Source of the DNA: Herpetosiphonaceae bacterium
GTDB lineage: Bacteria; Chloroflexota; Chloroflexia; Chloroflexales; Kallotenuaceae
DNA length: 32,319 nucleotides
Reading direction: 5' to 3'
NCBI GenBank assembly: GCA_013821605.1
Contig: JACDGP010000057.1
Location: forward strand, 1 to 32,319
Position 1 is the first letter of the stretch. Every line of letters begins with the position of its first letter. Under the pieces are notes generated by a model. The model ran no database searches, had not been told where the DNA came from, and worked only from the letters and a program-made list of their open reading frames with translations. A program made the position numbers and the translations under genes. Shown here piece by piece: positions 16,723 to 30,528 of this stretch.

Positions 16723-19308
16723 TCAACTATCTTCTCCGAGTGCATCGGCAAGGAGTTGCTCCCATGAGTACGACAGGCCCGTATGCCAGTCCTGCGCAAA
16801 GGGAGCGTCTTGGAGGGCGGTGCGGACCAGCGCGATGGCAGCGTTATGTTTCACGCGTTCCGGTCCCATGACCGGGGTGGCGAGCGTGTGCCCCAGGGCC
16901 GCCGTCGCTCCAAAGAGCCGGGCGGCGCGCTCACGCTGGCCCAGCTCGGCGAACACAGCGGCCAAACGTTCCACGCGCATGGCGATCTCGGGGCGATCGC
17001 CGAGCTGGGCTTGGATCGCTAGTCCCTCTTGATAGAGGCGGATTGCACGGCGACTATCGCCCTGGGAGCGCGCCACGTGCCCAAGATGCTTGAGGAGCAC
17101 GGCGATACCCAATTGATTTTCGGCGGTGCGATGGAGTGCGAGGCTTTCCTCGTAGTATACGATTGCACCGGAGATGTCGCCTTGATCGTGGGCGACATCA
17201 CCTAGCCCTGCCAGCATCCACGGGCCAACCCAGGTGTCGTTGAGTGCGCGACACAGAACGAGGCCTTCCTCGAAATACCGAGCGGCACCCACATAATCAC
17301 CATGCACGAGACCGTGGCTGCCAAGGGCGCTGAGGAGCGTCACGACAATGCGCTGATAGCCCCCGGCGCGTGCTAGCACGAGGCTTTCTTCGAGCAGCAC
17401 GACCTTCCGGCTGTCGTCCGGTTCCACCATCGCAGTGTGACAGAGCATCCAGGCGAGTCCCCAGGTGTCGCCGATGGTGCGAAACAGTTGGAGGCTTTCG
17501 ACTCGCAGATGGGCGGCCTGCACGCTCTCACCCCGTGCTGCCAGCACGTTGCTCAGGCCACGCAGCACGCGCGCCACACCTTGTTGATCCTCCAACGTCC
17601 GATAGAGTCCCAAGCTTTCCTCCAACAAGGTCGTCGCCTGGAGCTGGTCACCTTGGGCGTAGGCCAATTCCCCAGCGCGGTAGAGGGCCTTGGCCTGAGG
17701 AGCGGCGAGGGTCCCTGGTGGTGCCTTTCTGCTGAGGGCTAATAGCTGGGTAAGCCAGCGCCGACCTTCGCTGACGTAGCCACGCGGCCACCAGAACTCG
17801 CCCAAAGCGGCTGCTAAGCGCAGGCCTAGCTCCGTTGCCCCGTGCTCCAAGGACCATTGCAGGGCAACACGTAGATTGTCATGATCCACTTCCAGCTGAT
17901 CAAGCCAGAAGCGCTGCTGGGGGCCTTGCAGGTGAGGCGCGGCGGTGAGGGCGAGCTGCAGGAAGAAGTTGGCATGCTGCTCCCGCGTCAACTGCAGTTC
18001 CCCGTTCGCGGCAAGATGCTCCACTGCGTACTCGCGGATCGTCTCTAGTATGCTGAAGCGTGGTTCACCGCCCACGTCGTGCACCACAAGCAGACTCTGC
18101 TCGGCTAATGAGATCAGTCCGTCCAGTGCATCGAGCGGAAGGAGGTCGGCACAGAGCGCTTCAGCCGCCTGCAAGGACCACCCGCCACGGAAGACGCCCA
18201 GTCGCCGAAACAAGGCCTGTTCCCCCGCCGGGAGGAACGTGTAGCTCCAGGCGATCGTGTCGCGCACGGTTTGCTGGCGCTCTGGCAGGTCGCGCGCACC
18301 CCCCGTCAGGATCTGGAGCGATACCCCTACTTGGTCGTCCTGCAGCCGCCGCAGCAGTGCCTGCACCGGCAGGATCGCGACACGCCGTGCCGCTAGCTCA
18401 ATGGCCAGCGGCAGCCCATCCAGTTGGGTACAGATGTGGGCCACCGTTGCGGCGTTGGCAGCGGTGAGGGCAAAATCGGGCTTGCTCGCCTGGGCGCGCT
18501 CGATGAAGAGTTGTACGGCGGGCACGTGCTGGAGCACCTCCAGTGGCGGCAGATGGCGGGGAGGAGCGACGGCGAGCGGTGGGACGGGGTATACCTGCTC
18601 CACCTGCACACGCAGCACAACGCGACTCGTCACCAGCAGGCGGAGGTTGGGGCACGCTGCTCGCAGGCCAGCCACCTCCGGCCCGGCCGCAGCCACATGT
18701 TCGAAGTTGTCCAGTACGAGCAGGCAGGGCCGATCACGGAGGGCCGTGCTCAGACTCACAAGGATGGGGCGGCTCGGATCTTCCAGCACACCGATGGCGC
18801 GGGCGATCGTGGGTAGTACGCGGTCGGGAGAGTCCAGCGGTGCCAGGGCAACAAAGACGAGCTCATGGCCACGTTGTTCCTGAAACTGGCGAGCCACCGC
18901 CAGCGCTACGCGCGTCTTGCCCACGCCGCCTGGTCCGGTCAGGGTGAGCATGCGGCACTGCTCCTGCTCCAGCAGCGCCAGCACGGCCGCGATCTCACCC
19001 TCACGGCCCACGAGAGGCATGGGCGACACCGGCCAGCCAGGCAGATCGGGTACGTGCAGTTGGGAAGAGGTGCGGTGCCGTGGGGCGGGCGTTACGGCAG
19101 CCAGGAATCGGACAGTCTCCTCGGTCGCCAACCCCAACGCACTGGCCAAACGCTGGGCCGTAGCGCGTTGCGGCGTACTGCCACCCTGCTCAAGTAGGCG
19201 GATGGTGCGTGCGCTGACCCCGGCATGTTCGGCGAGTCCTTCCTGCGTCAATCCCGCAGCGAGACGGCACTCGCGGAGCAACGTCCCAAAGGATGCATGT
19301 GTCTGCAT
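16723..19308 (-). CDS. XRE-family HTH regulator with STAND (NB-ARC-like) ATPase and TPR repeats
   Basis: An 861-residue signal-transduction ATPase. Residues 7-63 are a Cro/CI-type helix-turn-helix (LRECRLAAGLTQEGLAEHAG, VSARTIRLLEQG). VGREGEI at 100-106 opens the nucleotide-binding domain. The P-loop GPGGVGKT spans 125-132, Walker B is CLLVLDNFEH with D200, TSR is at 227-229, and GLPLAIELAARR starts at 298. A winged-helix/arm region follows (TVRDTIAWSYTFLPAGEQALFRRLGVF). The C-terminal half is tetratricopeptide-like helices with repeated LLEESLxL, YYEESLALHR and LYQEGLAIQ units. The family typically keeps ADP bound until a ligand contacts the repeats. The ATG has GAGG 6 bases upstream. It is divergent from the unrecognised two-gene unit and may control it. 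Confidence 0.92.
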   Translation of the reverse strand: MQTHASFGTLLRECRLAAGLTQEGLAEHAGVSARTIRLLEQGGSTPQRATAQRLASALGLATEETVRFLAAVTPAPRHRTSSQLHVPDLPGWPVSPMPLVGREGEIAAVLALLEQEQCRMLTLTGPGGVGKTRVALAVARQFQEQRGHELVFVALAPLDSPDRVLPTIARAIGVLEDPSRPILVSLSTALRDRPCLLVLDNFEHVAAAGPEVAGLRAACPNLRLLVTSRVVLRVQVEQVYPVPPLAVAPPRHLPPLEVLQHVPAVQLFIERAQASKPDFALTAANAATVAHICTQLDGLPLAIELAARRVAILPVQALLRRLQDDQVGVSLQILTGGARDLPERQQTVRDTIAWSYTFLPAGEQALFRRLGVFRGGWSLQAAEALCADLLPLDALDGLISLAEQSLLVVHDVGGEPRFSILETIREYAVEHLAANGELQLTREQHANFFLQLALTAAPHLQGPQQRFWLDQLEVDHDNLRVALQWSLEHGATELGLRLAAALGEFWWPRGYVSEGRRWLTQLLALSRKAPPGTLAAPQAKALYRAGELAYAQGDQLQATTLLEESLGLYRTLEDQQGVARVLRGLSNVLAARGESVQAAHLRVESLQLFRTIGDTWGLAWMLCHTAMVEPDDSRKVVLLEESLVLARAGGYQRIVVTLLSALGSHGLVHGDYVGAARYFEEGLVLCRALNDTWVGPWMLAGLGDVAHDQGDISGAIVYYEESLALHRTAENQLGIAVLLKHLGHVARSQGDSRRAIRLYQEGLAIQAQLGDRPEIAMRVERLAAVFAELGQRERAARLFGATAALGHTLATPVMGPERVKHNAAIALVRTALQDAPFAQDWHTGLSYSWEQLLADALGEDS

Positions 19309-26724: not shown

Positions 26725-26931
26725 CTACTCTAAGGCTTTATGTTGTAGTTCGAGGGATGTGTATTGATCTCGCATGTCACTCAACATACCGGCCCAATCT
26801 CGCCGGAGCTTCTTCGCTGGTGTTCGTGCCCGTTTTACCAACAAGAATTCGACAAAATCACGTACTTCCGCCTGTATATCTGGCGGGAGCTCTTGCACCA
26901 ATTCAATGAGAGGTTTAGTTGCTGCACTCAT
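26725..26931 (-). CDS. Orphan antitoxin-like protein (DUF2281 type)
   Basis: A 68-residue protein with AAGGAG 9 bases before its ATG. LIELVQELPPDIQAEVRDFVEFLLVKRA, then KLRRDWAGMLSDMRDQYTSLELQHKALE, matches the DUF2281 antitoxin-type family that normally precedes a PIN-domain toxin gene. Here no toxin gene follows: 45 bases after the stop comes the DinB-type gene. The C-terminus ends at HKALE, where homologues usually continue a little further. A TGC-TATGAT extended -10 lies upstream at 26953-26961 on the same strand. It may be a relic or a stand-alone antitoxin. Confidence 0.75.
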   Translation of the reverse strand: MSAATKPLIELVQELPPDIQAEVRDFVEFLLVKRARTPAKKLRRDWAGMLSDMRDQYTSLELQHKALE

Positions 26932-27029: not shown

Positions 27030-27782
27030 TCAACTCCTATCGATTGCAATCAAGTTGGTTGCGGACGTTAGACCTACCATGTCCCAACCTAGCCCCTGAC
27101 GGTGAACTTCGAAGCATGGGGAATGGCGTAGGTCGTCCACGGTGACGGTGAAGTGGAACGGGAACAGTTCGAGGAGGCGCGGGAGATCGGCGAAGGGGAG
27201 CTCTTGGGCGGGATGGGCGGTAAGTGTGGCGGCAAGCAGCCACTCTTCGACCTCACGGCGGGATGTTGCGAGGGTATGGCGTAGGGGGGTGTAGGTGTAG
27301 CGTCTCGGGCCGTCCACTAACGCGCCCCAATTGCGGAGCGAGAATATCACCCGCTCCGTAGCATTATTGAGAGCACCAAGCTGACCCATCTCGGCGAAGA
27401 TGCGCTGCTTAACTTCTTTGGTGGTGATGGCATCCTGGTAGCGGCTGAGCTGGCCAATCGTGGCAGCGGCGAAGCGAAAGAAGGAGTAATACAGCACGGT
27501 CAGGCCGTAATGCAGCCAGATGCGGTCGTCGGCTGTGGAGGCAGCAAAGAGCTTGCAGGCGGCAGCACGTAGTTCGGGGTGAGCTTCGCGGGTTTTGACC
27601 CAGATGTTGATCAGGATGTCGATGGCTTCGCGGCGGTTATCTTTGCTCGCAATCTGCGCGCCGACAATTGGATCTAAGCGGGCACGAATAAACTCCGGGT
27701 TGTCGCGCTCGCTGCATAGAGCCGCCGTAGCATCGAGCCAGGGCAAGAAGATATTGCGGCGGAAGCCAATGTTTTTATCCAT
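27030..27782 (-). CDS. BrxA-position protein of the BREX-like locus
   Basis: A 250-residue, largely helical protein with no membrane segment. I do not recognise its family with certainty. RRNIFLPWLDATAAL, RREAIDILINIWVKTREAHPELRAAACKLF, WLHYGLTVLYYSFFRFAAATIGQLSRYQD and ERVIFSLRNWGALVDG are the clearest stretches; the last resembles the repeat-like helical ends of DUF1819 (BrxA) proteins. It starts 4 bases after the PglZ stop and is the last gene of the run, the position of brxA in type 3 BREX loci. The frame is intact, unlike PglZ. It could instead be an unrelated BREX-associated accessory protein. Confidence 0.5.
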   Translation of the reverse strand: MDKNIGFRRNIFLPWLDATAALCSERDNPEFIRARLDPIVGAQIASKDNRREAIDILINIWVKTREAHPELRAAACKLFAASTADDRIWLHYGLTVLYYSFFRFAAATIGQLSRYQDAITTKEVKQRIFAEMGQLGALNNATERVIFSLRNWGALVDGPRRYTYTPLRHTLATSRREVEEWLLAATLTAHPAQELPFADLPRLLELFPFHFTVTVDDLRHSPCFEVHRQGLGWDMVGLTSATNLIAIDRS

Positions 27783-27786
27783 CTTC

Positions 27787-28869
27787 CTATCTCTGCGTGA
27801 TCGTGACGAGTGGCACGATCATTTCTTCGAGTGTGAGCCCGCCATGACTTACGACCAGCTCGCCTAGCGGGGCAAAGGCGCCACGACCCTGCGGCATCAG
27901 CACCCATAGATCGGCAGGGAGCAGCTTGTCGGCATGCCATAGGATCGTCACGGGATAGTTCGCCTGGACGTTGCGGGCTAGATCCTCGCTGTTATAGAGC
28001 CGGGCGCGCTTGCTCCGGGAGACGGCGACGACACCTTCCTGGGGCTGGCCGATACCGGTAGCTTCGACATGGCCGTGGTCGGAGGTGAGCGTGACGGTGT
28101 AGCCCGATTCGAGCAACCGGTCGATCAGCGCTTCGAGCCAGGCTGATCCTTGCTCGCACTCGTCGGATTGGCCGAGCCAAATTCAGGGCTTGGCGCGAAA
28201 TTGCCGTAATGCTCGGTATCTGAGCCAGGACAGAGCTTTCGGTCCATTGCCATGCAGGGTGACGCGCCTGCCATACTCGTTGAATTTCCAGCCAACCGGC
28301 CAGGGATAGGCCATCTAGGACCAGCAGTTTGGAGGCGGGTAAGCCGCTGCCACTTGCTCACAAGAGCATCGCCCAATTGTGGTGACATGGGATCGTTGCG
28401 CGCGTGGTAGTCGTCCAGCCATGCGATCAGACGGGCGGGCTGCAGGGCAAGGCCAGGGCTCCAATCAAAGACAGCTTGGAGCAGCTAGTCTTCGGTTTCA
28501 CGCGAGGAGAGCGGCTGTGAAGGTTCGTTGCCGTCCATCTGAGCTTCGGCGAGACGGCGGCGCTGGCTCGGTGTGAGCTGCTGGAGCAGGCTATAGGCCA
28601 GATAACAGTTCATGGAGCGCCAACTCGACGTGGTGGCCCTGCTGCCACAGGTCGTAAGGCAGCATGTTTACGGGCTCGGGCGTCACGATGATCAGAGGTG
28701 CAGCGGTACTCCATGGTCGGGCCTGCTCTACTTGATAGCGTAAGGCAATAGGATCGGGCTCGGTGATGACACGGAAGGTGCGCTCGTGCAAGGCAGCTAC
28801 GTTCTGCGGGTCAGACAGTAGGGCATCGGGGTCGCTCACGAGGATGAGCGGGTAGGTGTTCCCCCTCAC
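27787..28869 (-). pseudogene. pglZ: PglZ-type alkaline phosphatase-superfamily protein, BREX (degraded)
   Basis: Three reading frames together give a PglZ. The N-terminal part is NTYPLILVSDPDALL, RVITEPDPIALRYQVE and VTPEPVNMLPYDLWQQGHHVELALHE. The centre is LLVLDGLSLAGWLEIQRVW, ESSVLAQIPSITAISRQAL. The end is GYTVTLTSDHGHVEATGIG and VSHGGLTLEEMIVPLV. The core serine and SDHGH metal-site residues are present but split apart. Disruptions on the minus strand: a frameshift near 28591-28605 that brings in a TAG, an amber codon at 28485-28487, a frameshift near 28325-28337, and another near 28180-28190. Its apparent ATG at 28869 lies inside the neighbouring palindromic repeat, so the true N-terminus is also lost. 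PglZ is the one component common to all BREX types. Confidence 0.85.
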
Positions 28870-28901
28870 CCCGGCCCTCTCCCACGCGGGGAGAGGGAGA
28901 A
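28862..28901. repeat. Dispersed palindromic intergenic repeat
   Basis: CCCTCACCCCGGCCCTCTCCC, then ACGCG, then GGGAGAGGG: arms CCCTCTCCC (28875-28883) and GGGAGAGGG (28889-28897). This C-rich palindrome is a familiar dispersed repeat in many bacterial genomes. It supplies the first codons of the surviving PglZ frame. Confidence 0.75.
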
Positions 28902-28942
28902 GGAGGAGTTATCCATACACGTGTGACGGGCAACGGGTTGAG

Positions 28943-29281
28943 TCAGCCATACAAGCGCACTCCCTCGGAAGCGACGATCCGTGCAATATGTCCTGGCAGT
29001 TGAAGGCCTCGGGTCCATCCTTCGGGTGTGAGCACAATGATGTCTAGTGGTAGAAGCCAGCCATCAAATAAGGCGTGAATTGCTCGCGCCTTATCGCGCA
29101 GCGTCTCACCCTCGGCTAATTTCATAATTACGAGCAGGTCGAGATCGCTACCCGGTCGCTGCTGATGACGGGCTGCCGATCCGAAGAGCATGATCGCATC
29201 GGGGTTGTATGCTTTAACAATCCGGTCGCGGACTTCAGTGATGAGTGCATCGTCAATAGTTCGTAAGGTAACTGTTGCCAT
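28943..29281 (-). CDS. MNT-type nucleotidyltransferase-domain protein (orphan)
   Basis: A 112-residue minimal nucleotidyltransferase. The signature GSAARHQQRPGSDLDLLV (G-S then D-x-D) is the metal and nucleotide site, and LPLDIIVL carries the third acidic residue. GAGGT lies about 9 bases before the ATG. Such proteins usually act as the MNT half of a HEPN/MNT toxin-antitoxin pair, adding AMP to the HEPN RNase. No HEPN gene is beside it: the palindromic repeat and degraded PglZ follow, and the methyltransferase fragment precedes by 10 bases. It sits where the helicase gene (brxHII) would be in a type 3 BREX order. Confidence 0.85.
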   Translation of the reverse strand: MATVTLRTIDDALITEVRDRIVKAYNPDAIMLFGSAARHQQRPGSDLDLLVIMKLAEGETLRDKARAIHALFDGWLLPLDIIVLTPEGWTRGLQLPGHIARIVASEGVRLYG

Positions 29282-29291
29282 AACCTTTACC

Positions 29292-29957
29292 TCAGTTAAC
29301 CCGCAAGCTTGCGTTGTCGTAGTACATCAGCAGGTTCGGGTCTTCTTGTAGCACATTCTCCGGCAAACGTTCGGCCATTTGGACAATCGTCGCATAGTCC
29401 CGTTCGCGCCAGGCTTGGGCAAAGCCCGCGCGAACGGCTTCGGTGCGGAACTGCTTGAGCTTACCCTTACTCGTTTGGTAGGTTGCAAACTCGCGGAGCA
29501 AACTTTTGGTGCGTAGCTTCTCTAAGTCGGCTGCTTTGTTCGGGTCGGGCACATACCAGCGGTCGCGCGCACGTGATTTGAGCTGGTGATTATCGGTTTC
29601 GACGCTGCCGTCCTCTAGTTCGCGGCCTTCCTTGGCTAGGAGATCGCGCATGTCGGTGCTCTTTTTGAGCCATGATACAATCTGGCCCGGGATGGGGCCG
29701 TTGCTGAAGTACCGCAGAAAGTTTTGCTCTAGAAGTTCGACCATCTCAACGCCTACCTCGTGCTTCTGCCAACTGCGTAGCTCTTGCATAAACTGTGGAG
29801 TCAGAGCGGCACTTGTTTGAGGCTTGTTAGCAAGCTGCTGGCGTAGCCATAAGATTGCCGATGCTTCATCGGAGACAAAAATTTGGAGTTGTTGTACTTC
29901 GCGGACCGTCATGCGCTTTCGCTCGTACTCGGACACTTGCTCGGGCAGAAAGAACAT
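29292..29957 (-). pseudogene. C-terminal fragment of a probable PglX-type DNA methyltransferase
   Basis: A 221-residue frame starting FFLPEQVSEYERKR and containing IFVSDEASAILWLRQQL, RDRWYVPDPNKAADLEKLRTKSLLREF, FRTEAVRAGFAQAWRERDYATIVQMAERLPENVLQEDPNLLMYYDNA. This is the C-terminal region of large methyltransferases that I associate with PglZ-containing defence loci. The methylase motifs (FxGxG and DPPY/NPPY) lie upstream in such proteins and are absent. Its start codon was created by the join to the stub of another gene. The frame itself is uninterrupted, so the deletion may be relatively recent. The assignment to PglX is from memory of homologues and should be tested. Confidence 0.6.
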
Positions 29958-30004
29958 GCCATCTCGTTCATGGGGTCGAAGTGGACGAGGTCTCGGTAGA
30001 GCAT
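29958..30004 (-). pseudogene. N-terminal stub of a BrxC-like ATPase
   Basis: From an ATG at 30004 with GAGG 7 bases before it the frame reads MLYRDLVHFDPMNEM, then runs out of frame into the methyltransferase fragment and stops at 29909. LYRDLVHFDP is the opening of the large BrxC-type (DUF6079-like) ATPases of type 3 BREX as I remember them. It follows the BrxF-like gene by 38 bases, the expected order. Nearly the entire gene is missing; the break lies between about 29957 and 29975. Confidence 0.55.
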
Positions 30005-30042
30005 GCGCTGCCTCAATGAAGCGGAATGAGATACATCATACC

Positions 30043-30516
30043 CTATATGGGAATAATGCACGACGAGCAGAGGTCGGGTTGTGACCAGGAACGATAGTAG
30101 GCATGGGCAGGCTCGGCATAGGTCAGCACGTTGTTAGCAAAGCGACCAGGCCAGGTGACGATCATGGGCGCGACACGACTGGCATCACGCAAAAGCCGGA
30201 GCGGATCGAGCGCCAACGCAGGCTCAAACAACAGATCGATAGCGGTGCAGATGATGGGTCCGGGCTGGCGCTGTCGCAGAGCATCTGTTATCAGGCCGTA
30301 GGTCGCGCCGGAGCGACGATCCTTGCTCACAGTCAGGAGTTGTTCACTCACCGTCCGCCCAAGGTGGAACTCCGGCCACCCATACTGCGCCTTGAGTTGT
30401 TCACCAGTTTGCTGCAACTGCGCGACATCCGGATGCACGAGCAAGCAACACGGGTAGTAGGGCTGCGCGGTCAGGAAACGGTCGAGCGTCAGATGTACTT
30501 CAACAGGTGCTAGCAA
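30043..30516 (-). CDS. brxF: BrxF-like protein with degenerate P-loop
   Basis: A 157-residue protein from TTG 30516, or a little upstream; an in-frame TAG at 30529-30531 limits the extension to four codons. The C-terminal half fits BrxF of type 3 BREX: PGPIICTAIDLLFEPALALDPLRLLRDASRVAPMIVTWPG, then LTYAEPAHAYYRSW. BrxF is a small P-loop ATPase-type protein; here the N-terminal strand YYPCCLLVHPD lacks the GxxGxGKT loop, so nucleotide binding seems lost. The gene follows the MBL-fold gene by 12 bases and precedes the BrxC-like stub. Identity rests on motif memory and order. Confidence 0.6.
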   Translation of the reverse strand: MLAPVEVHLTLDRFLTAQPYYPCCLLVHPDVAQLQQTGEQLKAQYGWPEFHLGRTVSEQLLTVSKDRRSGATYGLITDALRQRQPGPIICTAIDLLFEPALALDPLRLLRDASRVAPMIVTWPGRFANNVLTYAEPAHAYYRSWSQPDLCSSCIIPI

Positions 30517-30528
30517 TGAAGCAACCAG

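Follow-up and report, generated by a model that had tools for sequence, protein, structure and literature searches.

Type 3 BREX was reportedly described by Goldfarb and co-workers as an operon in the order brxF-brxC-pglXI-brxHII-pglZ-brxA. A BREX system cannot work without its ATPase, the catalytic part of its methyltransferase and PglZ. The type 3 systems have been re-surveyed (PMC12839542), with BrxHII in 77% of the taxa and thus missing from about 23%, and the same survey reports that HEPN genes, some of them fused to MNT, serve BREX loci as auxiliary effectors. In Candidatus Chloroploca mongolica, whose locus is split over two contigs like that of Oscillochloris, all five genes (brxF, brxC, pglXI, pglZ and brxA) are open across those two contigs. 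The brxC of C. asiatica (L036:13665-17774, G038:C168), open in C. mongolica, is split by a single in-frame TAA, which may be a sequencing error or a separate case of decay, and no DUF6079 match was found in the genome of Viridilinea, whose locus contig stops near the start of pglXI. Another type 3 order was seen in locus L040 (G041:C1:1370001-1390000), namely brxF-pglXI-brxC, a restriction enzyme and methyltransferase pair, and then a BrxH helicase.

Here we describe a locus from a Herpetosiphonaceae bacterium, found in a window of 32,319 nucleotides that makes up a whole contig (C178) of a draft genome of 5.88 Mb in 259 contigs, 99.57% complete. The locus very probably represents what is left of a type 3 BREX anti-phage operon, no longer functional and derived from a helicase-free sub-lineage of Chloroflexales. 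It is a fresh instance of an already known system type, and as such an ordinary genomic wreck.

Gene content and order

The features of the locus, all on the minus strand, are the following:
30043 to 30516, minus strand: brxF, open frame from TTG, N-terminus possibly shortened
29966 to 30004, minus strand: brxC remnant, first 11-15 codons or so (MLYRDLVHFDP), then an out-of-frame junction to pglXI
29965 to 29975, minus strand: brxC/pglXI deletion junction, with a possible overlap of a few bases within CCCCATGAA
29292 to 29969, minus strand: pglXI remnant, about 226 C-terminal codons, no stop or frameshift
28943 to 29281, minus strand: MNT minimal nucleotidyltransferase, intact
28860 to 28910, minus strand: palindromic C-rich repeat with 9-bp perfect arms (CCCTCTCCC/GGGAGAGGG), occupying the expected pglZ codons 1-12
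28609 to 28860, minus strand: pglZ remnant a, codons 13-96
28601 to 28609, minus strand: pglZ frameshift (small indel), where the alignment quits one frame at 28609 and picks up another at 28601
28332 to 28601, minus strand: pglZ remnant b, codons 101-190, in-frame TAG at about 28485-28487
28327 to 28332, minus strand: pglZ internal deletion junction 1, about 206 codons (191-396) gone
28184 to 28327, minus strand: pglZ remnant c, codons 397-444, with the LLVLDG motif
28182 to 28184, minus strand: pglZ internal deletion junction 2, about 88 codons (445-532) gone
27790 to 28182, minus strand: pglZ remnant d, codons 533-662 to the natural end, with TSDHGH
27030 to 27782, minus strand: brxA, complete open frame of 250 aa

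Read along the minus strand from 30528 to 27030, the locus thus holds brxF, a brxC stub, the C-terminal quarter of pglXI, MNT, the pieces of pglZ and brxA. A first-pass annotation had already listed six pieces in this order, and searches with PADLOC, Pfam and NCBIfam profiles name five of them, that is, all but the brxC stub. The latter is too short for any profile to score, and its identity comes from its alignment with the start of Chloroploca BrxC (MRYRDLVQFEP) and from its position right after brxF. The annotation had also likened the pieces to the six-gene type 3 operon, and indeed five of its six core families can be recognised, each on the expected strand and in the usual order. Its list stood for these five core pieces; MNT, its sixth, is cargo in a variable slot and not a BREX core gene. 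The profile searches it proposed matched the core families other than BrxC in place, and the comparison with the loci of relatives gave the lesions. The order brxF-brxC-pglXI-(slot)-pglZ-brxA is also found in the Chloroploca loci, and homologues of the fragments do neighbour PglZ in other genomes, a point on which the first reading had been made to depend. This common gene order, together with the E-values, excludes a chance origin.

The BrxF match spans 30046-30528, with a PADLOC E-value of 3.7e-22 and 88.5 bits for the NCBIfam model BREX_3_BrxF (NF033453, cut-off 50), as expected for a type 3 BrxF, and the protein is 47% identical to Chloroploca BrxF aa 18-165 in an alignment reaching the last residue. 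Its frame is open only from a TTG located 13 bp past the stop of the upstream metallo-hydrolase gene, and for this reason the native start may be lost. Since about 275 bp lie between brxF and its upstream gene in C. mongolica, versus 13 bp here, the native promoter region is probably gone as well. At the other end, brxA matches the PADLOC BrxA profile (1.3e-49, positions 2-234 of 238) with 58-59% identity to its relatives in Chloroploca, Viridilinea and Oscillochloris, so that the BrxA of type 3 BREX is present. The earlier remark that both end genes are still open is therefore borne out, fully for brxA and with a possibly lost native start for brxF. Directly downstream of brxA, at 26725-26931 on the minus strand, lies a DUF2281/VapB-family antitoxin-like gene (Pfam, 66.7 bits); the next gene, of the DinB family, follows too closely to leave space for a toxin gene.

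Deletions and other lesions

A single deletion, of about 6.1-6.3 kb by comparison with the Chloroploca loci, has joined brxC at about codon 11 to pglXI at about codon 734. In C. asiatica (L061, 3896 to ~9998) these positions are separated by some 6.1 kb, and in C. mongolica (L060, 3664 to ~9998) by 6.3 kb; the junction is exact to a few bases only, the aligned relatives being about 65% identical. Because the fusion shifts the reading frame, the tail of pglXI makes up a frame of its own that begins with an ATG at 29957. This tail (match at 29295-29972) covers positions 704-916 of the 919 in the PADLOC PglXI profile (2e-94), short of a full-length catalytic PglXI, and is 64-66% identical to Chloroploca and Viridilinea and 58-67% identical across the closest Chloroflexales loci. 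No PF19557 match, and hence no BrxC ATPase (DUF6079) of the kind that type 3 BREX carries, was found in the genome.

As mapped by translated comparison with the Chloroploca and Viridilinea proteins, pglZ is altered at its 5' end and carries a small frameshift, an in-frame TAG and two deletions in its interior, of about 206 and 88 codons. Its N-terminal piece (28594-28908) matches BREX_PglZ_3 (NF033449) at 7.4e-13 and its C-terminal piece (27790-28182) at 5e-33, which makes it specifically a type 3 PglZ; both ends match this model yet score below its whole-protein cut-off, and no intact type 3 PglZ is present. The C-rich repeat at the 5' end has many sites in other Chloroflexales genomes and gives short partial matches only in its own, where it is not an abundant exact repeat; it was accordingly dropped as a candidate agent of the deletions.

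Neither a second brxC (DUF6079) nor a second pglXI or pglZ was found in the 99.57%-complete host genome, so the BREX system cannot be complete, and complementation by another copy was rejected. The first-pass claim of a decay that destroyed brxC, pglZ and the catalytic portion of pglXI is supported, with no back-up in the genome. BREX function at the locus is almost certainly gone, and both adenine methylation and phage restriction by it are predicted to be absent, the catalytic parts being gone. Among five family-level relatives of the host, none gave a pglXI match above background, which fits either a gain by transfer here or a loss elsewhere; a search by synteny for the empty insertion site in the same family met only distant homologues of the flanking genes, which marked no one shared site.

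The cargo slot

MNT is separated from pglXI by 10 bp, and from the C-rich repeat and the pglZ remnant by about 35-80 bp. At 28946-29281 it scores 35.7 bits with Pfam NTP_transf_2, above the cut-off, and it falls below the cut-off with NCBIfam MntA_antitoxin. All five MNT homologues inspected adjoin a HEPN-like gene, as called by eye from a HAQQCAEKALKA-type motif and not by profile, and one of the five is located elsewhere in the same host genome. At the locus no HEPN toxin gene adjoins MNT, nor is there room for one beside it, and it is thus probably an orphan antitoxin-like gene. The idea that MNT regularly occupies the BREX slot was rejected, because no homologue turned up among the ORFs of 80 pglXI-containing loci. 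The content of the slot is diverse: Chloroploca has AAA ATPase genes there, on the opposite strand, Viridilinea has DUF6883 and DUF4926, Oscillochloris has no gene in it and the window has MNT. In loci L060-L139, the interval between brxC and pglXI also often holds extra genes. Cargo thus seems to enter type 3 BREX at two positions, one before pglZ and another between brxC and pglXI.

The missing helicase

No BrxHII helicase was found in the locus by profile searches, and the first-pass annotation had taken this as one more sign of decay. Across the 53 scorable loci, in which pglXI and pglZ share a contig, the interval between these two genes holds a full-length helicase in 36 cases, a fragment in three and none in 14, although one of the latter has a helicase located past brxA. 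The model used was built from a single seed protein, so very divergent helicases could escape it. The frequency of 36 in 53 would favour a helicase once present here and lost in the same decay, an option otherwise compatible with a decayed BREX operon that we nevertheless regard as unlikely. The interval is free of helicase in the three scorable sister loci (Chloroploca asiatica, Viridilinea and Oscillochloris), and the sister genomes searched (G038, G045, G059 and G051) contain no protein in the BrxH range, their best score being 382 bits with a local model under which the top 45 matches from the survey loci all reach at least 713 bits; in contrast, the BrxH-bearing G041 reaches 1530 bits with PDLC02500. 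A BrxH encoded elsewhere in the sister genomes was likewise discarded, for only other SNF2-type helicases appeared, scoring far below true BrxH. Neither a BrxHII remnant between 28870 and 29292 nor a close sister locus with a helicase in the slot was seen. Moreover, the window groups only with Oscillochloridaceae loci in the tree of the pglXI C-terminal part (support 100/99), and with the same group in the brxA tree (100/100). Sister loci and genomes without BrxH, the survey figure of 77% and both trees make an ancestral absence the simplest explanation, and the helicase was probably never present in the locus of this lineage. Its absence here is therefore no evidence of decay, against the earlier claim, and BrxHII, lacking from the sister loci and from about 23% of type 3 taxa, is not a strict mark of the type.

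The brxA of the window and of six helicase-free loci (L061, L063, L073, L088, L094 and L129) form one supported branch of the brxA tree, which also includes the helicase-bearing L105 and has long branches. This could be a real sub-type or long-branch attraction: the brxA tree carries a long-branch warning and the pglXI tree does not group the same loci. The brxA tree hints that the absence of the helicase goes with a divergent BrxA branch, which is left as a lead. On a broader scale it is conceivable, and we propose it tentatively as somewhat short of an even bet, that Chloroflexales carry a working, helicase-free type 3 BREX with a swappable cargo slot in the place of BrxHII and a divergent BrxA branch, of which the window would be a decayed member.

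Decay and its alternatives

The ancestral operon very probably read brxF-brxC-pglXI-[cargo slot]-pglZ-brxA, with MNT in the slot and probably a HEPN partner. As read from the alignment, the brxC-pglXI deletion removed the ATPase and the catalytic part of the methyltransferase, and pglZ gained its frameshift, its stop and its two internal deletions. The loss of methyltransferase and ATPase presumably abolished self-methylation and restriction, and the remaining genes would thereby have been freed from selection as a system. The decay looks recent, given that the remnants are about as similar to their relatives as these are to each other: the pglZ remnants share 205 of 352 residues with C. asiatica (58%), where the same parts of the intact Oscillochloris pglZ share 198 of 345 (57%), and the corresponding identities for window and Oscillochloris are 58% versus 55% in brxA and 66% versus 62% in the C-terminal part of pglXI. 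A broken pglZ without clear excess change indicates that most of the divergence arose while the gene was under selection.

The draft status of the genome, and the fact that the window is a whole contig, could raise the suspicion that the deletions arose in the assembly of metagenomic reads. This is extremely unlikely, because the lesions are of different kinds, several separate sites within 2 kb are affected, the flanks of each can be aligned, and the missing pieces were not found elsewhere in the assembly; a chimeric join could fake one junction, hardly all lesions. Another reading would have brxF, brxA, MNT and perhaps the C-terminal domain of pglXI kept for a reduced function such as DNA binding, regulation or phage interference. 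All four frames are open, without stop or frameshift, and about as conserved as in intact relatives, which could mean recency or remaining use. Taking the rate of two small disabling lesions in about 355 pglZ codons, some 3.6 lesions are predicted in the 631 codons of brxA, the pglXI C-terminal part and brxF, and none was seen, with a Poisson chance of about 0.03, or about 0.10 for brxA and brxF alone. However, pglZ may simply have broken first, and brxF has probably lost its upstream promoter region, so that we hold a retained function to be quite improbable; none of the 80 fetched loci consisted of brxF and brxA alone, but these loci were anchored on pglXI, and any such locus falls outside the sample. 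Elsewhere in the window (16723-19308, minus strand) an 861-aa protein with HTH, AAA, NB-ARC and TPR regions was observed, which may be a regulator of the STAND type or act in defence.

Gain and loss of defence systems are common, and alone this locus matters little. As a relic, it shows with readable junctions how a few deletions disarm a multi-gene defence operon with its end genes still open. Its placement among relatives also corrects an easy error, in that the absence of the helicase is most simply a lineage trait, and helicase-free type 3 BREX deserves a functional test.

Comparison with known systems

Compared with type 3 BREX as described, the locus shares five of the six core families in the canonical order and strand, and differs in its truncated or broken brxC, pglXI and pglZ, in the absence of the helicase and in the presence of MNT. 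With the type VII MntA/HepT-like MNT-HEPN pairs it has in common an MNT domain with the GSAAR...D.DLLV motif, 33-44% identical to Chloroflexales MNT proteins of such pairs, but here no HEPN gene adjoins and the NCBIfam MntA score stays below the cut-off. The loci of Chloroploca, Viridilinea and Oscillochloris (L060, L061, L063 and L073) are its closest relatives for both brxA and the C-terminal part of pglXI, and have, where readable, a helicase-free interval as here, whereas their pglXI, pglZ and brxA are intact and their cargo is another (AAA ATPases, DUF6883 plus DUF4926, or nothing) in the place of MNT.
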